In this document: positions 1,201-62,287 of the stretch, in pieces
Position numbering within the stretch: the stretch's first letter is position 1
How the letters are laid out: each line of letters opens with the position of its first letter
Notes under the pieces: model-generated
Databases searched by the model: none
Told to the model about the DNA's origin: nothing
Seen by the model: only the letters and a program-made list of their open reading frames with translations
Program-made: the position numbers and the translations under genes
Assembly (NCBI RefSeq): GCF_008271695.1
Contig: NZ_VKKY01000001.1
Location: 1,854,589 to 1,918,588, forward strand
Length of the DNA: 64,000 bases
Direction: 5' to 3'
DNA from: Rufibacter hautae
GTDB lineage: Bacteria; Bacteroidota; Bacteroidia; Cytophagales; Hymenobacteraceae

Positions 1201-1247
1201 AAAGCCGTTTTTAGTCTTTTTTCTTAAAATAGGCTAAAAACGGCTTT
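1201..1247 (+). terminator. Intrinsic terminator formed from the dispersed palindrome
   Basis: A perfect 14-bp stem pairs 1201-1214 with 1234-1247 around a T-rich loop, followed by a T-rich run (ATTTTTGTTT). The loop contains the TTTTTCTTAAAA core of the dispersed palindrome, so here the repeat itself acts as a terminator 20 bases after the AsmA-like stop codon. The T-run also contains TATTTTTG, a match to the Bacteroidota -7 box, 80 bases before the next gene. Confidence 0.85.
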
Positions 1248-1333
1248 ATTTTTGTTTGGCAATCTTCCGCCAGCCTTGCGTAAAGGTGGCGGCCGCCAAA
1301 ATCGGTGGTCTTGTTCCTACTCACCTTTCTATT

Positions 1334-2125
1334 ATGAAAAAACGATTGCTATTTGGAATGCTGTGGACGGCAGCCGTAGGGTTTGCCGCTTGTTCTGATG
1401 AAAATGACCCGGCCGGGTCGTCCCGCATGGAAGTACGCCTCACCGATGCGCCCGGGGATTACGCCGAAGTAAACGTGGACATCCGCTCGGTGCAGATCCA
1501 CCGCGAAGCCAACGATGATGAGGCTAGCTGGGAAACTCTGGAGACCATCCATCCTGGCGTATACAACCTTCTGGACTTTGCCAACGGCCGTGATACCTTG
1601 CTCGCCAGCGCCAACCTTCCCGCCGGACGCATTTCCCAGATCAGGTTAGTGCTCGGGAATAACAACTCCCTCAAATTGAAAGGTGAAACGGCTACCCGTC
1701 CGTTGACCACTCCTAGTGGCCAGACCTCGGGTTTGAAACTGCAGATCAACGCCGACCTGGTCGCCGATGTAACGTACCGGTTGCTGTTAGACTTTGATGC
1801 GGCTAAGTCAATTGTTCCACGTGGGAACAGCGGACAGTACAACCTGAAGCCGGTCATCCGGACGTTTGCAGAAGCCATCGCAGGAGGTATCAAAGGAACC
1901 GTAACCCCGGCTGATGCCAAACCCGGCATCCTGGTGATTTCCGCGGCCAACGACACCATTGGCGGTTTCACCGATGACGCAGGCCGTTACCTGATCAAGG
2001 GCATCCCGGCGGGAACGTACAAAGTACAGTTCAGCACCGCCGCACCTTACCAAAACAAAGAGCTCTCCAACATTATGGTCACCAATAACGCTATCACCGA
2101 AGTTCCGGCGGTAGATCTTAACTAA
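1334..2125 (+). CDS. DUF4382 domain lipoprotein
   Basis: 263 residues from ATG 1334, chosen because it begins a clear lipoprotein signal (MKKRLLFGMLW, lipobox GFAAC, Cys20); the frame is open further upstream but only as low-quality sequence. Acidic residues follow the cysteine (SDEND), resembling the Bacteroidota signal for export of lipoproteins to the cell surface. Residues ~25-170 match DUF4382 (EVRLTDAPGDYAEVNVDI near the start). Residues ~185-262 form a carboxypeptidase-regulatory-like beta-sandwich (GIKGTVTPADAKPG, then DDAGRYLIKGIPAGTYKV). Function is not known; the two-domain build suggests a surface structural or binding protein. It is a monocistronic unit closed by a hairpin shared with the convergent DinB-like gene. 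Confidence 0.85.
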   Translation: MKKRLLFGMLWTAAVGFAACSDENDPAGSSRMEVRLTDAPGDYAEVNVDIRSVQIHREANDDEASWETLETIHPGVYNLLDFANGRDTLLASANLPAGRISQIRLVLGNNNSLKLKGETATRPLTTPSGQTSGLKLQINADLVADVTYRLLLDFDAAKSIVPRGNSGQYNLKPVIRTFAEAIAGGIKGTVTPADAKPGILVISAANDTIGGFTDDAGRYLIKGIPAGTYKVQFSTAAPYQNKELSNIMVTNNAITEVPAVDLN

Positions 2126-2140
2126 CATAAAAGGAGCAAA

Positions 2141-2177
2141 AAGAAGAGGGGAGCCCATCACGGGCTCCCCTCTTCTT
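2141..2177. terminator. Bidirectional hairpin terminator
   Basis: Perfect 16-bp stem, 2141-2156 with 2162-2177, five-base loop, GC-rich core (GGGGAGCCC). It has A-rich sequence before and T-rich sequence after, so it can stop transcription from the DUF4382 gene and from the convergent DinB-like gene. Confidence 0.9.
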
Positions 2178-2236
2178 TTTATAGCATGATCTGTTTCCAA
2201 TCCCTTTCTAAGAAATCGGGCCGAAAAAGGAATAGG

Positions 2237-2722: not shown

Positions 2723-2805
2723 AATCAGGTAATTTGGGGTACAGGAAAGGCCTTTGCCTTTCAGAATCGGGCAAAAGTAGTAAACGTGACGCTTAGATAG
2801 AATGT

Positions 2806-3198: not shown

Positions 3199-3276
3199 GT
3201 AGGGTACGTACGCAAGGAGAGCCGGGCAGATGCAAATTCTACCCTTCCTCGCCAGTGGCGAAGGAAAATTCATCTC

Positions 3277-3313
3277 CGTTTTAAGCCTGATTTCAGGAAA
3301 ACAGCCGCAAAAT
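3277..3313. repeat. Dispersed palindrome copy
   Basis: Core GATTTCAGGAAAACAGCC flanked by TTTTAAG and GCAAAAT. It sits 31 bases beyond the stop codon of the DUF5009 gene and upstream of the DgkA-like start. Confidence 0.75.
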
Positions 3314-3344
3314 AGCTTCGGCTTGTCCTCAGGCAAGCCAATGA

Positions 3345-4481
3345 CTACACTTTGATGATGATGTTCTTCCGGTACATGGCATAGAGCAGCACCATGAAGA
3401 AGAGAATCCAGGTGATGGCCCAGGCCAATGAGGCATTGATCGGGCTCAGGTGCGGCGTATAGAAAGACTCGTAAAGGAAGGTCTTGCTGTCTACCTCGCC
3501 AGCCGGCGTATTTACCTTGATCATGGACAGAATCCTGGGCAGAAGTCCGGAGAGGAAGAAGACGGTGATCGCGTTCACGCCATACACCAGAAAAGGCGTG
3601 GTGAACCTGCGGTAGCCTTTCACGTCAATAAGCCAGTAGCACAGCCCTAAACCCAGCATCGCTAGACCCGAGGTGTACAGCACGAAGGAACTGGTCCAGA
3701 TGCTTTTGTTGATAGGAAAATGCAGGTCCCAAATCAGTCCCAGGCAGGTGCAGATCACACCCCACACCATCAACCAGGCGATCTTGTTTCCGGGATCGTC
3801 TTTCTTCGTGAGCCACTGCCCTACCAGCACGCCGGATAGCGAAGTAGCCACGGCTGGGAACGTACTCAGAATGCCTTCCGGGTCCCAGACTTTGGTGGAG
3901 TTCCAAAGGTGGCCGGGTAGCAGTTTGTTGTCCAGCCAGGCAGCCAGGTTGGTGGTAGGTTGCAGGTTGGCCTCCCCTATGCCGGGCACCGGGGCAAACA
4001 TCATCAAAGCCCAGTACCCGATCAGCAGAAAAGCGGCAATCAGAATCTGGGTACGGCGCTCGGTTTTCAGGAAGATAAGAGCCGCGATAATGAAAACCAC
4101 CCCAATACGCGCCAGCACCCCTGGAATCCGGACTGTTTCGAAGTCAAATTTGGGAAACAAGGCCAAAAACAGACCCAAGGCAAATAGGGTAAGCCCGCGC
4201 CGGATAATCCGGAAGATGGTAGCCGTATGCTGCTCGGGCCGTTGTTTGGCGCCGGACAACGCATAGGCAATAGACACACCCACTATAAAGAGAAAGAACG
4301 GAAACACCAGATCGGTGGGCGTGCAGCCGTGCCATTCCGCGTGCTTAAGCGGAGCGTAGATCTTGCCCCAATTGCCCGGGTTGTTCACCAGAATCATGCT
4401 CAGCACCGTGATTCCCCTGAATACGTCCAGTGACCTGAGCCTTGTCTTGGCGGGTTCCACCAAAGCCTCTTGCGAGATCAT
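3345..4481 (-). CDS. DUF5009 / HGSNAT-like (NagX-type) membrane acyltransferase homologue
   Basis: 378 residues from ATG 4481, which has a purine-rich stretch before it; a TTG 18 codons upstream is a possible alternative start. The N-terminus carries the family signature LRSLDVFRGITVLSMILVN, then WHGCTPTDLVFPFFLFIVG, followed by about ten further membrane helices and the GVNAITVFFLSGLL segment near the end. This is the bacterial relative of heparan-alpha-glucosaminide N-acetyltransferase; in Bacteroidota such proteins often sit in N-acetyl-sugar loci, but none of those genes is nearby. The histidine in EWHGCTPTD is the residue that family knowledge ties to acetyl transfer. Divergent from the SusC operon. 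Confidence 0.85.
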   Translation of the reverse strand: MISQEALVEPAKTRLRSLDVFRGITVLSMILVNNPGNWGKIYAPLKHAEWHGCTPTDLVFPFFLFIVGVSIAYALSGAKQRPEQHTATIFRIIRRGLTLFALGLFLALFPKFDFETVRIPGVLARIGVVFIIAALIFLKTERRTQILIAAFLLIGYWALMMFAPVPGIGEANLQPTTNLAAWLDNKLLPGHLWNSTKVWDPEGILSTFPAVATSLSGVLVGQWLTKKDDPGNKIAWLMVWGVICTCLGLIWDLHFPINKSIWTSSFVLYTSGLAMLGLGLCYWLIDVKGYRRFTTPFLVYGVNAITVFFLSGLLPRILSMIKVNTPAGEVDSKTFLYESFYTPHLSPINASLAWAITWILFFMVLLYAMYRKNIIIKV

Positions 4482-5124
4482 TTCTTCTGAGGCTGAATGT
4501 GTAGTAGAGATTGTATTCACTGGAGATTGTATCAAAAGTGGAAGAATAGCAGGGGCAAGAAAAGCACGAGACAGTAGAACTTTATAAAAGCCAAGTTAAC
4601 AGATTCTTACAGGTTTTTCATAGGAAAAGAGGAAATCTGCCGCTTTCTGTGTCACCAGTATAGAACACCTTGTTTTGAGGCTCTCAGAGTAAAGCATGGT
4701 TCAGGTTCCTAAATAATATCAATAAGTGTTAAATACTCACTTATAAAAATTAATTGATTTAAACTTTAAATTAAAAATACTTACTATTTCTGCTGATGCT
4801 TTGCTAGGTTTTTTATAATTTTCCCATCAAATTTTATATAGCAATTACGCTATTCTTCATAGTCCTACTAGAAAGTGCCGTTTAAAGGCCGTTTTATGAT
4901 AACTTCATTCAAAACAAAGCAATTTTTGATGAATAAAATAAATTATGGTTTGAGAAAGGATATGTTTTTAGCAAATCTTTAATTTTGCAGCAGCCTTGTC
5001 CTTCGGTGGTTAACACCAAAACATCCCAATCACCTTCTTTGACCTAAATGCCTTGATTTATTCACTTTCCCAGAAATTTCCAGATCAATAACAACAATCA
5101 GTCTACACCCCTAAATCCTTATTT
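4482..5124. other. Long AT-rich divergent intergenic region
   Basis: 643 bases between the DUF5009 gene and the SusC gene. No credible ORF, RNA gene or strong hairpin. The middle part (about 4720-4980) is markedly AT-rich. It must hold promoters for both directions; the only recognisable box is the TAATTTTG listed separately. No anti-sigma or ECF sigma gene is here, unlike many SusCD loci. Confidence 0.6.
4980..4987 (+). promoter_or_regulatory. Candidate -7 box for the SusC operon
   Basis: TAATTTTG matches the Bacteroidota TAnnTTTG box. A TTTG lies at 4949-4952, 27 bases upstream, longer than the usual 18-21. If used, it would give a leader of about 130 bases, leaving room for post-transcriptional control. 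Confidence 0.35.
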
Positions 5125-11053: not shown

Positions 11054-11099
11054 AAAAGAGAAAGGCCCTTCCGCAACAGCAGAAGGGCCTTTCTCTTTT
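11054..11099. terminator. Bidirectional terminator between SusCD operon and fumC
   Basis: Perfect 18-bp stem, 11054-11071 with 11082-11099, A-rich and T-rich at its two ends. It serves as a second stop for the SusCD operon and as the stop for fumC on the other strand. Confidence 0.9.
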
Positions 11100-11130
11100 A
11101 AGGGTGTTTTTGCCAGAAGAGGCTAAAAAC
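11099..11130. repeat. Dispersed palindrome copy
   Basis: GGGTGTTTTTGCCAGAAGAG then GCTAAAAAC. It lies 7 bases past the fumC stop and touches the preceding terminator. Confidence 0.65.
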
Positions 11131-12617: not shown

Positions 12618-12654
12618 GTTTCTAGTCTGTTTTCAGGAAAAGAGCCTTGGAACA
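12618..12654. repeat. Dispersed palindrome copy
   Basis: Core TCTGTTTTCAGGAAAAGAGCC. It begins 17 bases beyond the dipeptidase stop codon on the minus strand. Confidence 0.75.
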
Positions 12655-13552: not shown

Positions 13553-13958
13553 GTAGGTGTAAGGTGAAGCCGGACACTATCAGTGGCCCGAGCATGACTT
13601 TTCTTTTACTTTGCCTCAACAACTATTCCCCTGAAAAAACTCATTTTTCAACTCTTTTTATAGAAGGAGGATCAAAACGGCAGATGAATGCAGGGAGGAA
13701 GAAGCTTTAAATATAGATAATTTCTAATATGCACGCAGCACGTTGCCAGCAAAGGATCAATCCTGCTCTCTTTGCTTGTAGCTGCTACACTTATTTCAAG
13801 TGCTTTAACGGTATTTTCCAGAAAGAAGGCCTAAAACAGAAAGGAAACCTACAAGGAAAAGGAAGATGTTGGCTGTAATAAATATCTATTTTCCCCTACT
13901 AATAAACGGGTCGTTAGTGGCCCCAATTAAACGAGAGAACAAACCCTTTTCCCTTACC
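13553..13958. other. Divergent intergenic region before the M16 peptidase
   Basis: About 400 bases between two divergent starts. It contains one dispersed palindrome copy and otherwise no ORF or RNA gene that I can support. Part of it (13866-13958) is open in the M16 frame, but reads as non-coding upstream of a good signal-peptide start. Confidence 0.5.
13806..13838. repeat. Dispersed palindrome copy in a divergent promoter region
   Basis: GGTATTTTCCAGAAAGAAGG then CCTAAAACA. One of the few copies not placed after a stop codon. Confidence 0.65.
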
Positions 13959-16896: not shown

Positions 16897-16929
16897 TGTT
16901 TTAGGGCTGTTTTTGAGGAAATGCAAGGG
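16897..16929. repeat. Dispersed palindrome copy
   Basis: TGTTTTAGGGCTGTTTTTGA then GGAAATGCAAGG; the right half is degenerate. It follows the M16 terminator directly. Confidence 0.65.
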
Positions 16930-16936
16930 AAGCGTG

Positions 16937-17610: not shown

Positions 17611-17705
17611 AACCAGAGAAAGAGATATAATAATAGTTGCAAAAACGAACCATCACCAATACTCATCAAAGTGACGACGAATGAGCCGGGAGCCTACCTA
17701 AATCC

Positions 17706-17740
17706 CTTAAGGCCTGTTTCCTCAAAAACGCAGCAAAAAC
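17706..17740. repeat. Dispersed palindrome copy upstream of a promoter
   Basis: TTAAGGCCTGTTTCCTCAAA then AACGCAGCAAAAAC; left half near-consensus. It lies about 55 bases upstream of the promoter of the following lipoprotein gene. Confidence 0.7.
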
Positions 17741-18583: not shown

Positions 18584-18620
18584 TGTTTTGCCTCGGTTTC
18601 TCCAAAATGAGGCAAAAACC
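18584..18620. repeat. Dispersed palindrome copy between convergent stops
   Basis: GTTTTGCCTC and GAGGCAAAAAC arms around a GGTTTCTCCAAAAT centre. It fills the 52-base gap, ending at the base next to the MG2 gene stop codon, and could act as terminator for both genes. Confidence 0.8.
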
Positions 18621-21446: not shown

Positions 21447-21484
21447 TATTTTGGGCTTTATTTCTGAAAAAGAGGCTAAAAGCG
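21447..21484. repeat. Dispersed palindrome copy abutting the thioredoxin promoter
   Basis: GGGCTTTATTTCTGAAAAAG then AGGCTAAAAGCG, in a divergent gap. Its right end is 2 bases from the TAAATTTG box of the thioredoxin operon, so it could influence that promoter. Confidence 0.7.
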
Positions 21485-22126: not shown

Positions 22127-22162
22127 AAAAAAGCCTGCTAACGTCATTTAGCAGGCTTTTTT
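22127..22162. terminator. Bidirectional terminator
   Basis: Perfect 15-bp stem (22127-22141 with 22148-22162), GCCTGCTAA core, with A-run and T-run ends. It serves the thioredoxin operon and the convergent TetR-type gene. Confidence 0.9.
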
Positions 22163-22185
22163 GTTAAATAGTATTTAAAACGGGT

Positions 22186-23701: not shown

Positions 23702-23841
23702 GCCTTGCCAAAAGTGGATAAAGGTTATTCTGTATCTCAGATAATTCGCTTTGGAGACTAGTATATCGCTGATCATCAGTAGGTATAATCTGGATTATGA
23801 CCCTGAGAAAAGAAGAAAATACAGGGGTTATCCACAGCCAT

Positions 23842-23877
23842 TTATAAACCGATTTTGCAAAAATAGCCCCTAAACAG
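23842..23877. repeat. Dispersed palindrome copy
   Basis: AACCGATTTTGCAAAAATAG then CCCCTAAACAG, 28 bases beyond the stop codon of the GT39-like gene. Confidence 0.65.
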
Positions 23878-25348: not shown

Positions 25349-25464
25349 GCAGTTTCTGGATGCGTTTTAGGGTGACGGATTTATAGTACAGTGTCTGCAA
25401 AGAACAACAATTGCCCCAGAAAAACCACTCGTAGCCTAGGGTAATCTTCAAGGTCCGAAGCCAG

Positions 25465-25500
25465 ATTTCAGCCTGTTTTCAGAAAAGGAGCTTCAAACGG
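25465..25500. repeat. Dispersed palindrome copy
   Basis: TTTCAGCCTGTTTTCAGAAAA then GGAGCTTCAAACGG, 10 bases beyond the crtD stop codon. Confidence 0.75.
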
Positions 25501-27085: not shown

Positions 27086-27124
27086 CTGTTTTAAGTTTGT
27101 TTTGCTGAAAACGGCCCTGAAACC
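27086..27124. repeat. Dispersed palindrome copy
   Basis: TGTTTTAAGTTTGTTTTGCT then GAAAACGGCCCTGAAACC, 3 bases beyond the SRPBCC gene stop. Confidence 0.75.
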
Positions 27125-27683: not shown

Positions 27684-28358
27684 ATGAGAATTGCGCTTCT
27701 GGTGATCGTGACGATGATAGTGGTAGGACTGGGCAGCTGTAACCATTCCAGGAACATGTACACGAGCCCTGCTTTTGCGACGGCGGCCAAACACCATAAA
27801 ACCATCGCTATTCTGCCCTTCGATGTGCAGGTGGGCCTGCGCCCGAGCCAGATGCGGAAAATGACCCCTGAGCAGCTGTACGCCCTGGAACTGCAGCACG
27901 GCAGAGCGGTGCAGAGTGCGTTTCAGATCCATTTTCTGCAAAAGGTGAACAAAGACGGCGAGAAGATAGCTGTGCAGGACGTGAACCAAACCAATGCCAT
28001 CCTGAAGGAGCACGACATCCAGCCGGAGGAAATCCCCAACTATCTGCCCTCTGAATTGGCCCAGATGCTGGGTGTGGATGCGGTGATGGTAGGTTCCCTC
28101 ACCACCGAGAAGCCCGTCTCTACTGCCGTAGCCGCGGCGGTCGCGATCTACACGTTCCTCTATACGCCTTACGTGGGCAGTGCCGGCCCTACCAACTCCG
28201 GCAACACCATGATGAAGATCTACGACGGCGCCTCCGGTGACCTGCTCTGGAGCTATGACAAGACCCTTTCCAGAGGCATCGGTAGCGATACCCACAACAT
28301 CATCAAGGCCATTACGCGCAAAGCCACCAGGCAAAATCCTTACGTCAAGATGAAGTAG
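27684..28358 (+). CDS. CsgG/LpoB-like lipoprotein, tandem paralogue 1
   Basis: 224 residues; lipobox VGLGSC (Cys19) followed by NHSRN, without the acidic surface-export run, so probably facing the periplasm. The core reads like the CsgG/LpoB/TolB-N fold: HKTIAILPFDVQVGLRPSQM near residue 38 and LGVDAVMVGSLTTEKP near 130, where LGVD-VxGS is typical. Near the C-terminus comes a NTMMKIYDGASGDLLWSYDK strand pair. The next gene is its homologue. Family membership is by fold pattern only; function unknown. Confidence 0.6.
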   Translation: MRIALLVIVTMIVVGLGSCNHSRNMYTSPAFATAAKHHKTIAILPFDVQVGLRPSQMRKMTPEQLYALELQHGRAVQSAFQIHFLQKVNKDGEKIAVQDVNQTNAILKEHDIQPEEIPNYLPSELAQMLGVDAVMVGSLTTEKPVSTAVAAAVAIYTFLYTPYVGSAGPTNSGNTMMKIYDGASGDLLWSYDKTLSRGIGSDTHNIIKAITRKATRQNPYVKMK

Positions 28359-29201: not shown

Positions 29202-29236
29202 GTTTAAGGGCTGTTTCTCTAAAAATATGCTTAGAA
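29202..29236. repeat. Dispersed palindrome copy
   Basis: GTTTAAGGGCTGTTTCTCT then AAAAATATGCTTAGAA, directly after the hairpin. Confidence 0.7.
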
Positions 29237-29379
29237 TCTCACGGAAGAAACCATGTCCCTGCAGGTGAATTCTGTAAATAGTGGTATGTTAAATCTTTTT
29301 AGTAATATTACTAGCCTGCTGCTGCAGCAAAAGGCACTGTATCATAATTATTGGTCAAGATTTAATTATACATTCTTAC

Positions 29380-30009
29380 ATGAAAAAGATTTTACTTCTC
29401 TTGGTAGTGGTGGTGCTTTGTGCCGGCGGGTATTGGTTCTACAATCGGGCAAAAACCGGTCCGGAGGCATCCATTGTAGAAATTAGGGCGGCCCTGGAAG
29501 CCAAAGACATGGAAAAGCTGCAGAAGTACGTAGACTTTAAGCGCACCTCCAGCAGTATTGTAGAGCAAAGCCAGAACATGGCCGTTGATTTATTACCAGA
29601 AGAGCTGCAGGGAGCGGCCAATCTGCTCAGAAAAGGATTAAAAGCGAAAAAGCAACTCACCTCGGCTGTGCGCAGCCAACTCATCCAGAGCTTGGAGACA
29701 GTGTCTGGGCAGAAGGTGCCCGAAGTAGCCGATGTGATCAAGCTGCTGCCGGTAGGGCGCCTGATCAACGAGAAGATGCTACCTAAATTGGAGTTTGAAG
29801 GTGTGGACCACATTGACCGCCAGGATTCCATCGCGCTGGTAGGCCTGAAAGTAAGGCCCCAGAACGGCAATGAGTCTCTGGTGCTGGAACTGCGCATGCT
29901 CCAGAAAGAGGATTACTGGCAGGTGGTGGGCGTCAATAACTTCGGGGAGGTGCTGCCCCAGTTGATCTCCATCGGGAAGAAGAACAAAGACCAGGCAACG
30001 CAGGAGTAA
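29380..30009 (+). CDS. DUF2939-like membrane-anchored protein
   Basis: 209 residues. One N-terminal membrane anchor (residues 4-22, ILLLLVVVVLCAGGYWFYN), then a domain beginning ASIVEIRAALEAKDMEKLQK with YVDFKRTSSSIVEQ, which resembles DUF2939 (helix, then Y-V-D-F). The second half is beta-rich (SIALVGLKVRPQNG, VLELRMLQKEDYWQVVGVNN) like proteins of the NTF2-like type. Function unknown; periplasmic side likely. Monocistronic. Confidence 0.6.
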   Translation: MKKILLLLVVVVLCAGGYWFYNRAKTGPEASIVEIRAALEAKDMEKLQKYVDFKRTSSSIVEQSQNMAVDLLPEELQGAANLLRKGLKAKKQLTSAVRSQLIQSLETVSGQKVPEVADVIKLLPVGRLINEKMLPKLEFEGVDHIDRQDSIALVGLKVRPQNGNESLVLELRMLQKEDYWQVVGVNNFGEVLPQLISIGKKNKDQATQE

Positions 30010-30010
30010 G

Positions 30011-30045
30011 CTTTAGGGCCGTTTCCCTGAAAACAGGCTCTAAAC
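30011..30045. repeat. Dispersed palindrome copy
   Basis: CTTTAGGGCCGTTTCCCTGA then AAACAGGCTCTAAAC, starting 2 bases after the DUF2939-like stop and running into a terminator stem. Confidence 0.8.
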
Positions 30046-31606: not shown

Positions 31607-31613
31607 GTAATCA

Positions 31614-31648
31614 TTTCTGGTCTTTTTTGAAAAACAGCCTCTAAACGC
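31614..31648. repeat. Dispersed palindrome copy
   Basis: TTTCTGGTCTTTTTTGAAAA then ACAGCCTCTAAACGC. It ends at the base next to the SNF2 stop codon, between gene and terminator. Confidence 0.75.
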
Positions 31649-34591: not shown

Positions 34592-34771
34592 GGCAGAGGC
34601 TTCCAATCCCAATATTGAAAGTACAACAAAATCTTTTTTTACCCGCAGAAAAAGGCAGAAATTTTATCAAATTACCATCTTTTAAGTAATGACAATCCTA
34701 TTTTGAGGTCATTTTCTTAAAATCGCACAGAAAACAAACGTTAGCAGAACAGGGTTTCCGGGCTCTCCATT

Positions 34772-34805
34772 CAAGGGCTCTTTTCAGAAAAGAAGGCTGA
34801 AAACA
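34772..34805. repeat. Dispersed palindrome copy
   Basis: CAAGGGCTCTTTTCAGAAAA then GAAGGCTGAAAACA, 2 bases beyond the permease gene stop. Confidence 0.8.
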
Positions 34806-36169: not shown

Positions 36170-36204
36170 TTTTTAGGGGTGTTTCTGTGAAAGGAGGGCG
36201 AAAC
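36170..36204. repeat. Dispersed palindrome copy
   Basis: TTTTTAGGGGTGTTTCTGTG then AAAGGAGGGCGAAAC; it touches the stop codon of the GNAT gene. Confidence 0.65.
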
Positions 36205-36677
36205 TACAGCTGGGCCACTTTCTCGCGTTTCACCTCTTTCTGCATGCAAACGCTGCTTTCTATGTTCTCGTATTGCCCGAAGTTGGGAATGACCTTGAAA
36301 TCACTCTTGGTGTAGAGCCGGATGGCCTCTGGCTGCGCTTTGCCGGTCTCCAGAATGAGCGTTGAAAACTCCAGCTCGGCGGCCCAGCGCTCCAGTTCCG
36401 CCAGGATTCTTCCGGCAATGCCCTGCCCCCGGAACTCAGGCAGCACAAACATCCTTTTCACCTCCATGGTGTCCTGCGAGTAGGCTTTGATGGCGCCGCA
36501 GCCCACGGGTACCTCGTCATAGTAGGCCACCACCACGTGCCTGATGGCACTGATTTTATTGAATTGTGCAAAAAACGAGTGGTCATCCCCGTCCCGCACA
36601 TGAAGATCGGCGTCCAAAAGGGAAACAAGCTCTGCAAAATCCTGGTTGGCTGAATCTGTCCTGATTAACTCAATCAT
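36204..36677 (-). CDS. GNAT-family N-acetyltransferase
   Basis: 157 residues covering one GNAT fold. The acetyl-CoA site is MFVLPEFRGQGIAGRILAEL (R/Q-x-x-G-x-G/A), preceded by VGCGAIKAYSQDTMEVKRM and followed by LILETGKAQPEAIRLYTKS and the Y of FGQYENIESSVCM. Substrate cannot be told; this subgroup (YitI/ElaA-like single-domain) often acts on small metabolites. Starts at ATG 36677; 172 bases separate it from the permease gene. Confidence 0.9.
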   Translation of the reverse strand: MIELIRTDSANQDFAELVSLLDADLHVRDGDDHSFFAQFNKISAIRHVVVAYYDEVPVGCGAIKAYSQDTMEVKRMFVLPEFRGQGIAGRILAELERWAAELEFSTLILETGKAQPEAIRLYTKSDFKVIPNFGQYENIESSVCMQKEVKREKVAQL

Positions 36678-36764
36678 CTTGTTGCGAATAGTAGGAATAG
36701 CGGGGACGTGAGGGTGAAGTTAGCAGTTCTTGGCAGATTGTCAAAGTCCAATAAGCAGGGTCCC

Positions 36765-36801
36765 TTTCAGGCCTGATTTTCAGAAAACCGGCCCAAAGCA
36801 G
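36765..36801. repeat. Dispersed palindrome copy
   Basis: TTTCAGGCCTGATTTTCAGA then AAACCGGCCCAAAGCAG. About 50 bases beyond the methyltransferase stop. Confidence 0.75.
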
Positions 36802-39683: not shown

Positions 39684-39723
39684 GCTGTTTTACAGCTGTT
39701 TTTTGGAAATTAAGCTTGAAACA
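39684..39723. repeat. Dispersed palindrome copy
   Basis: CTGTTTTACAGCTGTTTTTT then GGAAATTAAGCTTGAAACA, 23 bases after the membrane protein stop. Confidence 0.7.
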
Positions 39724-39922: not shown

Positions 39923-39960
39923 GATTTGAGCCTATTTTCTGGGAAACAGCCCTAAAACAG
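39923..39960. repeat. Dispersed palindrome copy, near consensus
   Basis: TTTGAGCCTATTTTCTGGGA then AACAGCCCTAAAACAG. It lies just beyond the rpiB-side hairpin. Confidence 0.8.
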
Positions 39961-41397: not shown

Positions 41398-41429
41398 GTG
41401 GGTTTCTTGGTTGTTTTCAAGAAACCCAC
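41398..41429 (-). terminator. Hairpin downstream of glyA
   Basis: 12-bp perfect stem GTGGGTTTCTTG (41398-41409) with CAAGAAACCCAC (41418-41429). It lies 44 bases past the glyA stop. The minus-strand tail is only weakly T-rich. The layout (TTTTC centre, then CAAGAAACCC) recalls the dispersed palindrome but is too diverged to count. Confidence 0.5.
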
Positions 41430-41473
41430 TCAAAAGCCTTGTGTCTAATGCCTTGCTACCTGTTTCTGATTAC

Positions 41474-42748
41474 TTAGTAACTGAACAACGGGAATTGTTG
41501 CATCCAATTGTTGATTTCTTTTCTGGTATCTGCCAGGATGGTCTCGTTGTCATGGTTCATGAGCACGCGGTCAATGTAGTCCACAATGCGGTCCATGTCT
41601 TGTTCCTTCAGTCCCCGGGTAGTTACGGCGGCGGAGCCGATTCGGATTCCGGAGGTCACAAATGGAGATTTATCGTCAAACGGCACCATGTTCTTGTTGA
41701 TGGTGATGTCTGCCTTGATCAACGTGTTTTCGGCCAGTTTTCCGGTAAGGTCCTTTGAACGGAGGTCGATCAGCATCAGGTGGTTATCGGTGCCGGCAGA
41801 GATGATTTTGTATCCGCGGTCTACGAACGACTTAGCCAACACCTGCGAGTTGCGCTGTACCTGGGCCGTGTATTCTTTGTAAGAAGGCGAAAGCGCCTCA
41901 TGGAACGCCACTGCCTTAGCCGCGATCACGTGCTCCAACGGTCCGCCCTGCGTGCCCGGGAATACGCCGCTGTCCAGCAAAGAAGACATCATGCGCAGCT
42001 CGCCTTTCGGGGTTTTCAGCCCAAACGGGTTCTCGAAGTCTTTCCGCATCATGATCATACCGCCCCGTGGCCCGCGCAGGGTTTTGTGGGTAGTGGTGGT
42101 CACGATGTGGCAGAACTCAAACGGATCGTTCAATAGACCCGTGGCGATCAAACCAGCTGGGTGCGAGATATCGGCCAGTAACAGCGCGCCAACGGCATCG
42201 GCGGCTTCGCGCAGGGCTTTGTAGTTCCAGTCACGGGAGTACGCCGAGGCGCCGCAGATGATCAGTTTTGGTTTCTCGCGCTCGGCTACTTCCCTTACTT
42301 TGGTCCAGTCAATCTCGCCGGTCTCGGGCTCCACGCCATAGAAAGACGGCTGGTACAGTTTCCCCGAGAAGTTCACCAAAGAACCGTGGGTCAAGTGCCC
42401 GCCGTGCGATAGGTCAAAGCCCAGGATCTTGTCGCCGGGGTTCAGCACCGCCAGCATCACCGCCGCGTTGGCCTGCGCACCGGAGTGTGGCTGTACGTTC
42501 ACCCACTCAGCCCCGAACAGTTGCTTGGCGCGGTCAATGGCCAACTGCTCAGACTGGTCCACAATCTCGCAGCCACCGTAGTAGCGCTTGGCTGGCAGAC
42601 CCTCGGCATATTTATTCGTCAGCACACTGCCCATGGCCTCCATCACCTGCTCTGAAACAAAGTTCTCAGAGGCGATGAGTTCTATGCCGTGCAGCTGGCG
42701 CTGGTGCTCTTTCTGGATAAGATCAAAGATTTGGGAATCGCGTTGCAT
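41474..42748 (-). CDS. glyA: Serine hydroxymethyltransferase
   Basis: 424 residues from ATG 42748 ([20 protein letters not shown]); the frame is open 15 codons further but the promoter box lies there. PLP-dependent: the lysine that binds the cofactor is in [16 protein letters not shown] near residue 230, and [18 protein letters not shown] near 27 is the family's N-terminal signature. It transfers the serine hydroxymethyl group to tetrahydrofolate, giving glycine and methylene-THF. Cytosolic. Upstream of tatC-rpiB on the same strand with a 128-base gap and a hairpin between. Confidence 0.97.
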
Positions 42749-42838: not shown

Positions 42839-42877
42839 GCTGTTTTGGGGCTGTTTTCTGGAAAACAAACAAAAAAC
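42839..42877. repeat. Dispersed palindrome copy
   Basis: GCTGTTTTGGGGCTGTTTTC then TGGAAAACAAACAAAAAAC. It overlaps the end of the next terminator, 45 bases beyond the T9SS gene stop. Confidence 0.75.
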
Positions 42878-42900
42878 CCTCAGGCACTGCCTGAGGGTTT
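42874..42900 (-). terminator. Terminator of the first T9SS cargo gene
   Basis: Perfect 12-bp stem AAACCCTCAGGC (42874-42885) with 42889-42900. On the minus strand it is followed by TTTGTTTG supplied by the neighbouring palindrome. Confidence 0.85.
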
Positions 42901-42922: not shown

Positions 42923-45325
42923 TTATTGCTTGATAAGGCGCTGGGTAAGCCGCTCGCCGTTCAGCTCGGTTACCAACAGGTAAATCCCTGATTTTACCTT
43001 AGCCCCAATCACCAAGTCTGACGCTGACGTGCCTTTGGCCACTTTGATTTTTTTCTCCAAAGCCACTTCGCCGTACTCGGTCATAAGCTTCACGCTCATT
43101 TCGCCGGCTTTCTCTGCGTTTACGGTCAGCTTCACTTTATCGGTGAACGGGTTTGGGGAAGCCTGCACCGCCGCTGTGTACGCCTTGTTGTCTACTTTTA
43201 CTGTCTGGCTGTAGGTGAAGGTGCCATCTGCGTTGGTGCGCTTCAGGCGGTAGTAGTTGGCTGGGCCGGCTGCCGGGCTGAAATCCTCTGCATGGTACAC
43301 CGCGGTAGCTGCGTTGGCGCTGTTCTGTCTAGGAGCCTTAGAAATGATGGTCTCGAACTCTTTGCTTTCTGGGCTAGAGGCTCTTTCTACATCATAAGTC
43401 GCTGTTATCTTTCCAGGGGCCATCCACTTCAGTTTAACGGTTTTCGCGTTCCAATGGGCGATGAAATCCATTTCTTCTACTGTGGCAACTGGCTCTTCTT
43501 TTACCGGCTGCGAAGCCACAAAATCGATGGCTGAGTAGCCGTTGTGCAGGTAGAATTCGGAGAAGTCTGTGATGCCTGCCACTTCGGCGGTAAAGTAATT
43601 ACCGGTGGAGCTGAAAGCTGTTCCAAGAAGATGGTTTGTGATAGAACCTGCTTCGGTGTTGTCTGTGTACAAGCAGTTCTCACTTGGGCCCGAACTGCTG
43701 TAAGTGGTAAAAGACAAATTCTCTAAAGTGGTTACCTCAGGAACTGCATTCTGGTAGGCTTCTACTTCAGATTTCAGTCCGTAGAACCTTATTCTGACTG
43801 GTTTGTCTGCGCTTGGCGCTGTAGTGGATTTGAGTCTCCAGTTTCTGGCCAAGGCCTTGATATCGGCTCCGTCAGTGCTTTTCAAGGTGCGGGCATTCTC
43901 TGAGCTCACTGCAAAATCAAGGGAGACCTCTCCTAAGCTGTTTCCTCCATCATTGAAGGTAGCCACTACCTCGCCCTCAAATTTGATTTCCTGCCAGGTT
44001 CCGGAACCCGTTGACGTTACGGATGCAGATGATTTGCAGGCATTATAATCTGAAGTGCTTTTAGGCGTGTAAATGGCAGATCCGCAGCTTAAGAAGTTCC
44101 AGCCAGTGGTATTTCCAATTGATTGGCTAGATAAGCCTGCATAGTAGGCTCCCGGACCTGTAGCCGTAACATCAGAAATAGTCAGGTAGTCTGTACAGAA
44201 ACCGAAAGACGAAAAGTTAACGTTGGCTGTTTGGCCCGCAACGGAAGACTGAATAGTAGTTAATGAACCAGCTCCAAAGGTAAAGAGGCTTTCAATGGTT
44301 TGGTTTTGGCCTGCCTCCAGAACAAGCGTGTTGCTCTCCGTTGCAATGGCTTGCTTGGGGAGGGTGATGCTTTTGAAGGTATTGCTATGGTTCACGTATG
44401 ACCGAGGTCCGTGAAGCGTCACTAATTTATAAGACTTACCCCCACCGTTGAAAATATGCGTTTCAGGGCCGTTTATTGTAAAAGCGGCAGAATCTGCCTT
44501 CAGGGTTAAGGAAGGAGATACATTCCAGGTACTCAGGTTCTCAAGAGCAGAGTTGCCCAAGTCTAATGATCTAGCTTTGTCACTAACCGAGTTGAAGGCA
44601 TTGATGGAGATTGGATATCCGTTGGTCTTCAGGGAGCCTTGTTGCAAGTTGATGGTGCCGTTGGCGCTTACCCTTATCTGGCTTTGCAAGTCCCAGCTTC
44701 CAGATCCGTCAAACGTCAAAACTGTGCCCGGGGCAAAAAGTCTACCCTCAAAGTTAAGCGGAGCATTCTCCGTTGCGGTTTTGAAGTTCAGGAGGAAGCC
44801 CTTGGTGCCCGTAAAGGTAAGATCAAGGTTTGCCTGCAGTGCTCCGTGTACATTCAAGGTTTGGCCATTTCCGTCAAAATTCGTAGCCCGGATGCCAGTC
44901 CAAGAGATGTTGTTCACGTTTGCCTCCTGGTCTAAGGTGACTTTCTGCCCCGTAAATAAGAAGGAGTTAATATCAAACACTATGTTGTCTGCCGCCGTTG
45001 GTAGTGTCTGGTGTTTCACTTTCCCTCCGCTGGTGGTTGCCCAGTGGCCTAGTTCACTCCAAGCGCCGCTCCCGCGGTTTGTTGCTCCAAATGGAACCCA
45101 GTAATAAGTTTTGCCAGTGGCCGTGGTATCTTCTAATTCTGCGGCAGATTCACCCTTGGGTGTCCAGGCTAGTTGAGCAAGATTCAAGATGGAGCGGATG
45201 TTTTTGGACTTGGCTGCTCTGGCATAGTGGCTACTACCATAGGTGTAAGACAGAGCTCCGCTGGCCAGCACCAAACAGAGGGTGACGTACATCACCTCCT
45301 TTAAACGGGTAAAGTTTCTAATCAT
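42923..45325 (-). CDS. Secreted protein with type IX secretion sorting domain
   Basis: 800 residues. N-terminal membrane/signal segment (VMYVTLCLVLASGALSYTYG). Residues ~75-380 hold repeated beta-helix-like text (GSGAWSELGHWATTSGG, TADNIVFDINSFLFTG). Residues ~640-720 are a fibronectin-III-like domain (FIAHWNAKTVKLKWMAPGKI). The last ~80 residues are the T9SS type A sorting domain (QASPNPFTDKVKLTVNAEKA ending GERLTQRLIKQ), which directs export through the outer membrane and usually surface anchoring. No catalytic motif seen; adhesin or matrix protein is a guess. Lower GC than the housekeeping genes around. Confidence 0.85.
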   Translation of the reverse strand: MIRNFTRLKEVMYVTLCLVLASGALSYTYGSSHYARAAKSKNIRSILNLAQLAWTPKGESAAELEDTTATGKTYYWVPFGATNRGSGAWSELGHWATTSGGKVKHQTLPTAADNIVFDINSFLFTGQKVTLDQEANVNNISWTGIRATNFDGNGQTLNVHGALQANLDLTFTGTKGFLLNFKTATENAPLNFEGRLFAPGTVLTFDGSGSWDLQSQIRVSANGTINLQQGSLKTNGYPISINAFNSVSDKARSLDLGNSALENLSTWNVSPSLTLKADSAAFTINGPETHIFNGGGKSYKLVTLHGPRSYVNHSNTFKSITLPKQAIATESNTLVLEAGQNQTIESLFTFGAGSLTTIQSSVAGQTANVNFSSFGFCTDYLTISDVTATGPGAYYAGLSSQSIGNTTGWNFLSCGSAIYTPKSTSDYNACKSSASVTSTGSGTWQEIKFEGEVVATFNDGGNSLGEVSLDFAVSSENARTLKSTDGADIKALARNWRLKSTTAPSADKPVRIRFYGLKSEVEAYQNAVPEVTTLENLSFTTYSSSGPSENCLYTDNTEAGSITNHLLGTAFSSTGNYFTAEVAGITDFSEFYLHNGYSAIDFVASQPVKEEPVATVEEMDFIAHWNAKTVKLKWMAPGKITATYDVERASSPESKEFETIISKAPRQNSANAATAVYHAEDFSPAAGPANYYRLKRTNADGTFTYSQTVKVDNKAYTAAVQASPNPFTDKVKLTVNAEKAGEMSVKLMTEYGEVALEKKIKVAKGTSASDLVIGAKVKSGIYLLVTELNGERLTQRLIKQ

Positions 45326-45813
45326 AAGTGATCATTAAAGGGGTTAGTAATTGGATTGTAAATTGTGGTTGTGTTTTAAGGATAATTCTATTGTAAAGCT
45401 GCAGTTGTACTTGCGTTCAAGGTTATACTTATTACCTAATAATACTTGTTTGATTGATCGCGTCTGATCTAGAATATTATACCAATCTCTTCTATTAAGT
45501 GCTGTAACAAGCTATTCAAGTTTAAATCATTCTATTTTGAGTTCTAATATATAGTATAAATATATATAGACAATAAAAGGTATATAAATCTATTATTAAT
45601 ATTAAAAAGATTATAAAATATGGTGTTCAGATGATATCAAATTGTCAACTCTGCACTTCAATGAGGCATTACTGTAGATAGTTGCACTTTCCTCATTGAA
45701 GTATAACCGTGGTTAGTGGTAAGTTCTTAGAGGTATAAAAACCTAGAATTATCTAGGGTAGCCGTCAAAAAGCAATAATCCTTTTCCTGTTGTTTTTCAA
45801 AAATGAGGGCATA
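45326..45813. other. AT-rich intergenic region between two T9SS cargo genes
   Basis: About 490 bases before the next terminator, strongly AT-rich (45480-45640 in particular), with no ORF or recognisable box. It must carry the promoter of the 42923-45325 gene. It holds one dispersed palindrome near its far end. Confidence 0.6.
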
Positions 45814-45817
45814 AAAA
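45784..45817. repeat. Dispersed palindrome copy
   Basis: CCTGTTGTTTTTCAAAAATG then AGGGCATAAAAA, joined to the terminator of the larger T9SS gene. Confidence 0.6.
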
Positions 45818-45843
45818 AGGGGAAGCATTCGCTTCCCCTTTTT
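45814..45843 (-). terminator. Terminator of the second T9SS cargo gene
   Basis: Perfect 13-bp stem AAAAAGGGGAAGC (45814-45826) with 45831-45843, loop ATTC, T-run on the minus strand. It lies 18 bases past the stop. Confidence 0.9.
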
Positions 45844-50636: not shown

Positions 50637-50674
50637 TGTTTAGCGCCCTTTTTTGACGAAACTGCCCAAAAACG
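50637..50674. repeat. Dispersed palindrome copy
   Basis: GTGTTTAGCGCCCTTTTTTG then ACGAAACTGCCCAAAAAC, next to the terminator of the small hydrophilic gene. Confidence 0.7.
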
Positions 50675-52336: not shown

Positions 52337-52374
52337 CGTTTTAGCATCGTTTTCCAGAAAACAGAGTAAAAACA
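52337..52374. repeat. Dispersed palindrome copy in a divergent gap
   Basis: CGTTTTAGCATCGTTTTCCA then GAAAACAGAGTAAAAACA; between the SDR and pterin dehydratase starts. Confidence 0.75.
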
Positions 52375-52688: not shown

Positions 52689-52728
52689 CCTGATTTAAGC
52701 CCGTTTTCTTTAAATTAGCTTCAAAACA
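52689..52728. repeat. Dispersed palindrome copy
   Basis: GATTTAAGCCCGTTTTCTTT then AAATTAGCTTCAAAACA, 2 bases after the pterin dehydratase stop. Confidence 0.75.
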
Positions 52729-55104: not shown

Positions 55105-55144
55105 TCCGTTTTCGGGCCGTTTTACGGAAATCGGCGTTGAAACA
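55105..55144. repeat. Dispersed palindrome copy
   Basis: CCGTTTTCGGGCCGTTTTAC then GGAAATCGGCGTTGAAACA, 2 bases after the lnt stop. Confidence 0.75.
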
Positions 55145-56014: not shown

Positions 56015-56053
56015 GCGTTTAAGAGCTGTTTTTTATAAATCGGCTTAGAAACG
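56015..56053. repeat. Dispersed palindrome copy
   Basis: GCGTTTAAGAGCTGTTTTTT then ATAAATCGGCTTAGAAACG, 8 bases after the phosphatase stop. Confidence 0.75.
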
Positions 56054-56388: not shown

Positions 56389-56430
56389 TTTAGTTTAGCG
56401 GCTCTTTTTCTGAAAACAGGCCTAAAACGG
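56389..56430. repeat. Dispersed palindrome copy, near consensus
   Basis: AGTTTAGCGGCTCTTTTTCT then GAAAACAGGCCTAAAACGG. The right half matches the consensus almost perfectly. It follows the terminator. Confidence 0.85.
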
Positions 56431-59064: not shown

Positions 59065-59082
59065 ATGCTTTTTATATTATAA

Positions 59083-59115
59083 AACAGGTGCCACCTTCAG
59101 TAGGTAGCACCTGTT
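59083..59115 (-). terminator. Terminator of the thioredoxin-like gene
   Basis: 14-bp stem with one mismatch, 59083-59096 with 59102-59115, AACAGGTGC core, followed on the minus strand by TTTATAATATAA. Confidence 0.7.
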
Positions 59116-59152
59116 CCTGTTTTAAACCTGTTTAGGCAAAAGTAGGCAAAAA
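59116..59152. repeat. Dispersed palindrome copy
   Basis: CCTGTTTTAAACCTGTTTAG then GCAAAAGTAGGCAAAAA, next to the terminator; 95 bases beyond the thioredoxin-like stop. Confidence 0.65.
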
Positions 59153-59247
59153 AGGCGAGGCTGCGTGCTGCAGCGGTGGCCAGTTTCCTTTGTTATACTG
59201 AGACCTGTATCTTGAAAGGTGCCCGAAAGTTTGGGTTAATCTATGCC

Positions 59248-60690: not shown

Positions 60691-60777
60691 CTTGAAAATC
60701 AATAAAGAAGATACAATCTTTGATTCAGTAATGGTTTTCTAACGCCACCAGAAATAAAAATAGTTCAAAGGGTTGGC

Positions 60778-62157
60778 TTATCCAAATAAACCGCTGAAGA
60801 CTTCCTCCAACCTGCTAGCCGCATGGATTCTGATGTTAAACCGGCTCAGGTCTACCCCTTTTTTGTTGTATTTAGAAATGAAAATGTCCTGAAAACCCAA
60901 TTTCTCGGCCTCTGAGATACGTTGCTCAATACGGTGCACGGCCCGCACCTCGCCCCCTAAGCCCACCTCAGCGGCAAAGCAGGTGGTGTGCGGAATAGCC
61001 ACATCTTCAAAGGAAGAAAGCAGGGCGGCGCAAATGGCTAAATCCAAAGCGGGATCTTCCACTTTCAAGCCTCCGGCGATGTTTAGAAAGACGTCCTGCA
61101 TGCCCATTTTAAAGCCCCCACGCTTCTCCAGCACGGCCAAGAGCATGTTCAGGCGCTTGGCATCATAACCAGTGGTACTGCGTTGCGGCGTGCCGTACGT
61201 AGCGGGCGTGACCAGGCTCTGCACCTCAATGAGCAGCGGGCGGTTGCCTTCCATGGTGCCCCCGATGGTGATGCCACTGAAAGCCTCCTCGCGCTGCGAA
61301 ATAAGAATCTCAGAGGGGTTGCTCACCTCCCGCAGGCCGGTGCCCAGCATCTCGTAGATGCCCAACTCAGACGTGCTCCCGAAACGATTTTTAGTCGTGC
61401 GCAGGATGCGGTAGGTCATGTGGCGGTCGCCCTCAAACTGGAGCACAGTGTCTACCATGTGCTCCAGAATCTTAGGTCCGGCCAGGTTGCCTTCCTTGGT
61501 GATGTGCCCGATCAAAAACACCGGCGTGCCGCTTTCCTTCGCGAATTTGAGCAGCTCAGCGGTACACTCCCGCACCTGGGCCACGCTGCCCGCGCCGCTT
61601 TCAATAAAGGATGAGTGCAGCGTCTGGATAGAGTCAATGATCAGGACATCAGGTTGGAGTTGCTCTATCTGCTTGAAGATGTTCTGGGTGCCGGTCTCGG
61701 TGAGGATAAAGCAGTTGGGGTGTTTGGCGCCCAGGCGCTCGGCGCGCATCTTGATCTGCTGCTCGCTTTCCTCGCCGGAGATGTACAACACGCGCTGGCT
61801 GCGCAGACTCAACGCGATCTGCAGCATGAGCGTGGATTTCCCGATGCCGGGCTCACCGCCGATAAGCACCATAGAGCCGGGCACAATGCCGCCGCCCAAG
61901 ACGCGGTTCAGTTCGGCGTCCTCGGTGACCACGCGGGCCTGCTCTGAGTAGGTGATCTCCCCGATGGGTTTGGGTTTGCTGGCCACCTGTTGGCTGCTGG
62001 TACCCACTTTCCAGGCGGTGGTGGGCGTCACGTCCTCGCGGGCCACTACTTCTTCTACGTAGGTGTTCCACTCGCCGCAGGCCGGGCAGCGGCCTATCCA
62101 TTTAGCCGACTGCGCCCCGCAGCTCTGGCAGAAATATGCTGTTTTGATTTTAGCCAT
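60778..62157 (-). CDS. radA: DNA repair protein RadA
   Basis: 459 residues. N-terminal zinc finger C10-x2-C13 and C24-x2-C27, Walker A GGEPGIGKST near residue 95, Walker B LIIDSIQT, the RadA-specific KNRFGSTSELGIYEM motif near 255, and a C-terminal Lon-like domain (GMQDVFLNIAGGLKVEDPAL). RadA processes recombination intermediates with RecA, promoting branch migration. It is a cytosolic housekeeping gene with no operon partner here. Confidence 0.97.
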   Translation of the reverse strand: MAKIKTAYFCQSCGAQSAKWIGRCPACGEWNTYVEEVVAREDVTPTTAWKVGTSSQQVASKPKPIGEITYSEQARVVTEDAELNRVLGGGIVPGSMVLIGGEPGIGKSTLMLQIALSLRSQRVLYISGEESEQQIKMRAERLGAKHPNCFILTETGTQNIFKQIEQLQPDVLIIDSIQTLHSSFIESGAGSVAQVRECTAELLKFAKESGTPVFLIGHITKEGNLAGPKILEHMVDTVLQFEGDRHMTYRILRTTKNRFGSTSELGIYEMLGTGLREVSNPSEILISQREEAFSGITIGGTMEGNRPLLIEVQSLVTPATYGTPQRSTTGYDAKRLNMLLAVLEKRGGFKMGMQDVFLNIAGGLKVEDPALDLAICAALLSSFEDVAIPHTTCFAAEVGLGGEVRAVHRIEQRISEAEKLGFQDIFISKYNKKGVDLSRFNIRIHAASRLEEVFSGLFG

Positions 62158-62254
62158 AAGATTGATTTTCCGCGCCGCGAATACGGCGAAGGTAAGAATC
62201 CGCGGTAGTAACCGGGTACAGAGATAACAACTTCTATCCTATAATTACTCCGTT

Positions 62255-62287
62255 CTGGGCCGCATTTTCCAAAAATAAACCAAAATC
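62255..62287. repeat. Dispersed palindrome copy, degenerate
   Basis: CTGGGCCGCATTTTCCAAAA then ATAAACCAAAATC in the divergent gap between radA and the lipoprotein gene. Confidence 0.5.

Follow-up and report, generated by a model that had tools for sequence, protein, structure and literature searches.

A degenerate 36-bp dyad element near mRNA ends in the genus Rufibacter, a possible operator for a symmetric DNA-binding protein

What is the imperfect palindrome that recurs between the genes of Rufibacter hautae, often just past a stop codon: a dispersed repeat, an RNA hairpin or a DNA site read by a protein? In this study, we followed the element from one 64,000-nucleotide stretch of contig NZ_VKKY01000001.1 (the window, to which all coordinates refer) to the genome and to related species. 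Its consensus, (Y)GTTTTnRGSCYGTTTTY-NN-RAAAACRGSCYnAAAAC(R), is 36 bp long and consists of two inverted 17-bp half-sites around a 2-bp centre, each half-site being formed by two GTTTT-like boxes 11 bp apart with a loose G+C core between them. A position model detected 41 sites in the window and 1 in the reversed window, while a simple consensus scan gave 32 matches with at least 22 of 34 letters and none in the reversed window. The dispersed repeat of about 30 copies reported in the initial annotation is thus real, and four examples named there lie within 3 bp of the modelled sites 31611..31646, 34769..34804, 52692..52727 and 55108..55143. Rfam gave no match at gathering score in the window.

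The position model was then applied to 864 kb of the R. hautae genome, where it found 500 sites and 7 in the reversed sequence; 464 kb of this DNA had served for training, and the 400 kb kept out of training contained 224 sites and 2 reversed ones. By extrapolation, about 3,400 sites are present per genome. A separate IUPAC pattern with up to 3 mismatches matched 2,021 places in the 5.84-Mb genome and 10 when written backwards. The earlier expectation of thousands of copies per genome therefore holds. High counts were obtained only with the native spacing of the two halves and, to a lesser degree, with shifts of 1–2 bp.

In the window, 27 of the 41 sites begin no more than 75 bp from a stop codon, in line with the more than 20 counted before. 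Downstream of plus-strand genes, these are 1206..1241 (24 bp after the stop, inside a longer inverted repeat at 1200–1248; score 26.7), 16898..16933 (65 bp; 24.3), 29202..29237 (72 bp; 28.3), 30010..30045 (touching the stop at 30009; 35.8), 52692..52727 (5 bp; 33.4), 55108..55143 (5 bp; 35.7), 56017..56052 (10 bp; 33.2) and 56393..56428 (72 bp; 40.1). Downstream of minus-strand genes, they are 3278..3313 (31 bp; 39.7), 12618..12653 (18 bp; 33.2), 23840..23875 (30 bp; 27.2), 25464..25499 (11 bp; 27.3), 27088..27123 (4 bp; 37.9), 31611..31646 (2 bp; 21.5), 34769..34804 (3 bp; 28.2) and, as the second site after the same stop, 34700..34735 (72 bp; 27.8), further 36170..36205 (overlapping the stop by 2 bp; 22.9), 36764..36799 (51 bp; 33.1), 41402..41437 (36 bp; 26.8), 42842..42877 (45 bp; 40.2), 45781..45816 (45 bp; 23.0) and 50638..50673 (58 bp; 29.1). 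Convergent gaps hold 2193..2228 (8 bp from the minus-strand stop; 25.4), 11095..11130 (7 bp from the minus-strand stop; 28.9), 18585..18620, which fills a 52-bp gap (23.3), 22146..22181 (4 bp from the minus-strand stop; 16.8) and 39687..39722 (26 bp after the plus-strand stop; 35.7), the last sharing its gap with 39923..39958 (88 bp from the minus-strand stop; 37.7). The latter belongs to four sites located elsewhere, together with 17705..17740 (872 bp from a called stop; 25.6), 59119..59154 (93 bp after a minus-strand stop; 25.7) and the weak site 62958..62993 (140 bp after a plus-strand stop; 16.4). Six sites lie in divergent gaps, namely 4880..4915 (22.1), 13643..13678 (21.2), 13802..13837 (31.6), 21448..21483 (32.1), 52338..52373 (32.7) and 62252..62287 (24.7), and four weak ones in predicted genes, namely 4135..4170 (25.5), 27920..27955 (17.4), 41726..41761 (17.3) and 44460..44495 (18.2).

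The proposed preference for 3′ ends held across the R. hautae sample and exceeded what the available gap space alone would give. At places at least 120 bp away from any start, site density was 4.8–6.7 per kb up to 60 bp from a stop codon and 0.2–1.0 per kb at 150 bp and beyond. Among gaps of 40–249 bp, sites were present in 46 of 53 convergent, 103 of 234 tandem and 13 of 33 divergent ones. Gene interiors contained 0.147 sites per kb, compared with 1.27 elsewhere; the interior sites comprised 78 weak sites in confidently called genes, and their density stood against 0.008 per kb in the reversed control. Genes were called by a small custom script with 76–82% coding coverage, so some of the apparent gaps contain genes that were missed, and part of the in-gene sites may sit in false genes. 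With respect to transcription, the element showed no polarity: the gene-proximal half scored 15.30 and the distal half 14.92 (n = 160, p = 0.87), and a second comparison gave 18.70 and 19.15 (n = 61, p = 0.72).

The element was abundant in each of 16 examined genomes of the genus (Rufibacter/Sabulibacter), while with the IUPAC pattern no clear site excess was seen in five other genera of the family, represented by 184 genomes. Between species, sites stay in place while their flanks diverge. Of the 37 window sites outside genes, 29 could be aligned with their flanks to the nearest relative, G014, and 28 of these kept a score above the threshold, with insertions in G014 counted in the test; site 59119..59154 was lost there through a 3-bp insertion, and the in-gene site 44460..44495 was missing at the aligned place. 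The mean score change was −1.4, compared with −18.9 expected for an equal number of random substitutions, and the change was better than this expectation in 27 of 28 sites. Site 27088..27123, for example, carries 13 substitutions in G014 and still scores 37.1. Constraint is strongly uneven across the conserved positions: positions 3, 4 and 14–16 were kept to 94%, the flanks to 79% and the other site positions to 73%. In orthologous gaps of pooled species (gaps of at least 40 bp and gene pairs of at least 35% identity), a site was present in both members in 86 cases, only in the window in 29, only in the relative in 3 and in neither in 49. The consensus itself has shifted in place from species to species.

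The claim that individual copies keep the complementarity of their halves did not survive for most of them, since the halves vary almost independently. In the window, 68.4% of mirrored cells paired, compared with 70.7% after the right halves had been redealt (27 of 41 sites). Substitutions that arose after the divergence from G014 are not compensatory: both sides had changed in 23 cases with 18.3 expected, and 50 pairs were lost and 50 gained. The compensatory change named in advance as a test is almost absent. A slight pairing excess was detected over the 500 sites (9.84 versus 9.56 of 17 pairs, sd 0.063), and 21 of them (about 4%) were near-perfect palindromes, compared with 2.5 expected; when tested by score quarter, there was little excess outside this tail. 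This excess and the near-perfect minority stand against the reading of independent halves.

Of the alternatives put forward in the initial annotation, a protein site fits best, given the independent halves and the uneven constraint. Fixed spacing of a dyad, halves that degenerate independently of each other and constrained contact positions are features of an operator, and the comparison of sequences supports well that a protein would read the element. Taken as a whole, we favor a genus-specific double-stranded DNA operator for a putative symmetric protein at mRNA ends, probably acting as a roadblock or boundary for RNA polymerase; this complete reading is tentative, and we rate it at a little less than even. 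An abundant protein, in the form of a symmetric dimer or of two dimers, would bind both half-sites, and natural selection keeps the site just past mRNA stop codons, most of all in convergent gaps, where the two genes can share a single symmetric site. The bound protein would most likely form a two-way barrier limiting read-through: once the trailing ribosome has left at the stop codon, the polymerase would stall at this barrier and then be released by Rho, Mfd or a nearby hairpin. A polymerase with a ribosome behind it would force its way past, and weak sites inside genes would therefore be tolerated. These in-gene sites and the sites in divergent gaps nevertheless speak against the reading.

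Roadblock termination, in which a site-bound protein stands in the path of RNA polymerase, has been described in bacteria for DNA-bound LacI, CcpA, CodY and Fis; it is strongest where no ribosome follows, and a genome-wide case in yeast is cited in the same review, in a text that calls the role of Rho at roadblocks unclear (PMC10310618). The Rufibacter site would work likewise, but whereas the bacterial examples are gene-regulatory sites, a dedicated site would here mark roughly half of the mRNA ends. Matches to Rho and Mfd were found in all 19 genomes searched. As regards the binder, an additional copy of HU was considered and not found: HU matched once in this genome and showed no expansion across the genus, and the second, weak matches seen in 7 of 29 genomes were spread over members of the genus and outsiders. 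The 110 genes that have a site immediately upstream were inspected by eye for size, charge and first residues, and no autoregulated binder was evident among them.

The main rival is a protein that organizes the chromosome. Here, the element would be bound by a nucleoid-associated or topology protein, for instance as a supercoil barrier or topoisomerase-loading site, with any effect on termination being secondary; this is a serious contender, although on balance we doubt it. The location of the site at mRNA ends would then reflect the accumulation of positive supercoils at these places and its exclusion from other DNA by promoters and codons; GapR-seq data for E. coli indicate an enrichment of positive supercoils between convergent genes (PMC8360656). 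Consistent with such a protein, sites are spaced more evenly than under random placement in gaps (CV 0.95 versus 1.44), only 13.5% of 495 intervals being shorter than 300 bp, where 43% would be expected, and the distance from an in-gene site to other sites is larger than for random points inside genes (p = 0.018 at the low and p = 0.035 at the higher threshold). Sites also occur in divergent gaps, at 1.0 per kb in DNA at least 120 bp from any start and in 51 of 93 such gaps in sum, although no mRNA ends there. However, one site per gene end would also yield even spacing, and the drop in density of about 5- to 30-fold between 0–60 bp and at least 150 bp from the stop takes place in equally non-coding DNA. 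The scarcity of sites at tRNA ends (3 of 33) and the lack of an extra HU copy speak against this explanation as well.

An RNA hairpin that takes part in termination, in protecting mRNA 3′ ends or in translation close to the stop codon would likewise account for the location, but we consider it improbable. In its favor, 15 of the 21 near-perfect palindromes continue outward for 4 bp or more if one mismatch is tolerated, and at 10 of the 72 coding ends that combine a site with a terminator-like hairpin, the hairpin is formed by the site alone. That some copies are fused to terminator stems was borne out. In the window, the outer T-tract of 42842..42877 adjoins a terminator-like hairpin at 42874–42900, and 45781..45816 lies next to a hairpin at 45814–45843. 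Against a hairpin function, pairing in the window is not above that of shuffled halves, compensatory evolution is missing and the halves lack transcript polarity; moreover, a transcript of the site would carry U before the stem and A after it, the reverse of the order in an intrinsic terminator. Selection on hairpin structure is rejected for the bulk of copies, given their nearly independent halves and the absence of compensatory evolution. The element shares its location with intrinsic terminators and in some cases adjoins or forms such hairpins, but its U/A order differs, its pairing lacks conservation, and the hairpins used by tRNA genes occur without it. Sites were found near 212 of 393 coding ends but only 3 of 33 tRNA ends, and hairpin terminators near 108 of 393 coding and 26 of 33 tRNA ends (33 distinct tRNA genes at 30 loci, taken from 40 matches, some being followed by another tRNA). 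A general terminator of gene ends is weakened as an explanation by the few sites at tRNA ends. In relatives without the element, hairpin terminators were present at 15 of 91 and 20 of 91 ends, a share that is not higher, which argues against the site as a replacement for them. These relatives evidently manage without extra hairpin terminators, a point against the operator reading.

Still a little less probable is a mobile or formerly mobile repeat of the REP/MITE type, which a transposase such as RAYT would have spread and which would now be decaying. REP and BIME sequences of enterobacteria and other groups are short palindromic repeats in hundreds to thousands of intergenic copies, often past stop codons; they are described as forming stems, carrying GTAG or CGTC tags and being linked to RAYTs, and are reported to bind proteins, with proposed roles in termination, supercoiling and chromosome organization (PMC3733652, PMC2817692). 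The Rufibacter element resembles them as a dispersed, imperfect 36-bp palindrome (the REP criterion being 20–40 bp) in many copies between genes, and Y1_Tnp matches were found in 15 of the 16 genus genomes. It differs in having independent halves, single units instead of mosaic clusters, positions conserved across the genus and no tag: neither GTAG nor CGTC occurs in the symmetrised model or its flanks. RAYT is not required, since the genus genome without a Y1_Tnp match (G006) has 1,538 sites; conversely, G017 and G018 show no site excess in spite of their Y1_Tnp/RAYT matches. Two RAYT-like genes in the sampled R. hautae DNA had ordinary sites nearby without special framing. The search for an associated RAYT transposase thus linked none to the element, and its supposed REP-like status is not supported, given also that compensation is almost lacking and positions are kept. 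Position-dependent constraint, the consensus shifted in place and the persistence of orthologous sites under substitution likewise argue against decaying repeats. Searches beyond the genus gave little: G019, from another family, had half-sites in twofold excess but no full palindrome was found, G017 and G018 showed no comparable alternative palindrome in a dyad-word count of 200 kb each, the exact core was not found in IMG/VR viruses, and plasmids yielded two partial, chance-like matches. No account of a Rufibacter palindrome or repeat was found in the openly licensed literature, and the main text of RepRanger mentions neither Rufibacter nor Hymenobacter. HIP1 of cyanobacteria and DNA uptake sequences are short, near-exact words that are common in coding DNA; the Rufibacter element is similarly lineage-restricted and present in thousands of copies, but is a degenerate dyad of 36–40 bp at gene ends.

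A by-product of base composition or of low-complexity intergenic DNA is refuted in spite of the short T and A tracts in the consensus, because the density is not that expected from composition (500 versus 7 reversed), the count depends on spacing and the element shows no clear excess in the 184 related genomes of similar or different composition.

To our knowledge, protein-bound sites at message ends in bacteria are known only as scattered regulatory cases. If the operator reading is true, a whole bacterial genus marks most of its message ends with a protein-bound DNA site, providing a simple system for studying how a genome-wide set of several thousand operators arises at the root of a genus, how selection holds sites in place, how a consensus drifts and whether translation gates roadblock termination. 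In its furthest form, which we regard as possible but rather unlikely, the element would be a protein-read punctuation after about half of the coding transcripts, where one abundant genus-specific protein stops ribosome-free polymerase and translation decides if a site takes effect; this would amount to a genome-wide code of protein-dependent termination, separate from the hairpin terminators kept for tRNA genes. Even if a chromosome-organizing protein binds the element instead, the sites would still indicate an undescribed and highly sequence-specific chromosome protein.

With a plain consensus scan (at least 22 of 34 letters), 32 matches were found in the window, whereas its reversed sequence gave zero. 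When 464 kb from the same genome served to train a position model, the window yielded 41 sites versus one after reversal. Applied to 864 kb of the R. hautae genome, this model detected 500 sites versus 7 in the reversed sequence, including 224 versus 2 in the 400 kb outside the training set; extrapolation from the 864 kb yields about 3,400 sites per 5.84-Mb genome. These counts bear out the dispersed repeat described in the initial annotation, an observation that stands except for the complementarity of the arms. At the native arm spacing, 422 places were detected outside gene interiors, compared with 6–26 when the distance between the arms was increased by 3 to 8 bp. Arm shifts of 1–2 bp retained scores due to the T-tracts, and a bump at shifts of 10 and 12 bp (87 and 118 places) resulted from the 11-bp period in the site.

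The symmetrised model of the site reads (Y)GTTTTnRGSCYGTTTTY-NN-RAAAACRGSCYnAAAAC(R), and T or A makes up 95–96% of the letters at positions 3, 4, 14 and 15 and at the mirrored positions. Each half therefore consists of two GTTTT-like boxes located 11 bp apart; the G+C core is loose, with G or C about equally used at position 9. Dyad-word counts ranked GTTTT-AAAAC pairs at 15 and 26 bp among the top words in R. hautae and two other genomes of the genus, G005 and G006, and in G005 also the pair at 4 bp. The T boxes are 96–99% kept in related species and the remaining positions vary; position 6 is mixed in R. hautae, T in 86% in G006, and G or A in G005.

Of the 40–249-bp gaps in the 864 kb, 46 of 53 convergent ones had a site, as did 103 of 234 tandem ones (p = 6e-9 for convergent versus tandem) and 13 of 33 divergent ones. 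When counting was restricted to DNA 120 bp or more away from every start, the density within 60 bp of a stop was 6.7 (convergent) and 4.8 (tandem) sites per kb, versus 0.2 and 1.0 at more than 150 bp; divergent gaps had 1.0 per kb. This confirms the previously noted placement after stop codons, and, since the peak is seen this far from starts, gene ends attract sites beyond promoter avoidance. In G005 and G006 together, the respective densities were 6.2 and 5.1 within 60 bp, 0.4 and 0.3 beyond 150 bp, and 0.2 in divergent gaps. Confident gene interiors of R. hautae contain 78 weak sites; gene interiors hold 4 sites in 127 kb of G006 and 2 in 126 kb of G005.

Site presence in orthologous gaps of 15 relatives agreed in 135 of 167 pooled comparisons, which are not independent (86 both, 49 neither, 29 window only, 3 relative only). 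Of the 37 non-gene window sites, 29 could be aligned to the nearest relative compared, G014, with identities of 94% at T positions, 79% in the flanks and 73% at other site positions. With indels counted, 28 of these 29 stay above threshold in G014, one being lost through an insertion. The mean score change of the 28 sites with substitutions was −1.4, versus −18.9 for random changes, and the site at 27088 has the same score despite 13 changes.

Among 200 family genomes searched, the 16 of the genus (Rufibacter/Sabulibacter) contain 949–2,666 full-pattern matches versus 4–23 for the backwards pattern, and none of the 184 from five other genera exceeds 29 matches or clearly surpasses its own control. 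A stricter pattern applied to 118 genomes of the order gave 742 matches in R. hautae and 1–2 each in five others. The exact 20-letter core occurred in 117 stretches among 84,980 named genomes; Rufibacter or Sabulibacter supplied 102 of these, and the other 15 were single occurrences in other organisms. In G019, from another family of the order, half-site words were about twofold over control (372/397 versus 186/183); despite this excess, no full palindrome was seen there.

The 800-aa protein encoded at 42923–45325 (−) is present in 10 of 16 genus genomes (45–67% identity) and had no match in a Pfam search. The SNF2-family helicase (Pfam) at 31649–34612 (−) is 86–97% identical across all 16, each of which has a second, more distant SNF2-family helicase (41–45%). 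The sampled DNA of R. hautae contains two 183-codon RAYT-like (Y1_Tnp) genes (L023, L224), and related Y1_Tnp matches are common in the order, whether the element is present or not.

These sequence comparisons show the element to be a dyad DNA site, limited to one genus, whose defined positions are under constraint and whose copies stay in place and concentrate at mRNA ends. We propose that an abundant symmetric protein binds it and may act as a roadblock or boundary. A chromosome-organising protein as owner of the site would account at least as well for the even spacing of sites, their presence in a summed 51 of 93 divergent gaps and the distance that separates in-gene sites from other sites.

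Selection on structure would be expected to make mirrored letters covary. The complementarity between halves claimed in the initial annotation did not hold in 27 window sites (68.4% pairing versus 70.7% shuffled), and 276 sites had 2,706 mirrored pairs versus 2,649 expected. Across 500 sites, the mean of 9.84 versus 9.56 of 17 pairs is a small but real excess, largely caused by 21 near-perfect sites (at least 15 pairs; 2.5 expected), 15 of which reach at least 4 bp further outward. Like intrinsic terminators, several of the 21 are preceded by A and followed by T, and some resemble two-way intrinsic terminators; template-switch correction of quasi-palindromes would be an alternative cause of near-perfect sites. 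Since the G014 split, mirrored positions changed on both sides in 23 cases versus 18.3 expected, and 50 pairs were lost and 50 gained. The site halves showed no strength difference with transcription direction. The pairing, substitution and half-strength results are the pattern of a putative operator for a symmetric protein, and on sequence grounds the protein-site alternative raised earlier is well supported. The REP-like reading was rejected, as the element fails the tests that define REP elements.

Hairpin terminators within 100 nt were found at 26 of 33 tRNA versus 108 of 393 coding ends (p = 7e-9), and nearby sites at 3 of 33 versus 212 of 393 (p = 2.5e-7). Sites and hairpins tended to coincide (odds ratio 2.1), doing so at 72 coding ends; 145 of the 393 had neither. 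Two relatives without the element have hairpins at 15/91 and 20/91 coding ends; thus, the element is no replacement for hairpins. Several unlinked tRNA genes of R. hautae (L236, L239, L243, L251) end in hairpin terminators that are nearly identical to one another (like AGCCACTTA...TAAGTGGCTTTTTT) and form a small shared terminator family; in at least two of them, TGTTTG and an ACACA-like stretch come next.

Rho and Mfd were found in all 19 genomes searched. At a protein roadblock or boundary, polymerase might be released via Rho, Mfd or a hairpin, and the ribosome would gate the effect of the site. Such gating, if true, would explain why sites lie just past stops and are lacking at tRNA genes, and why weak in-gene sites are tolerated.
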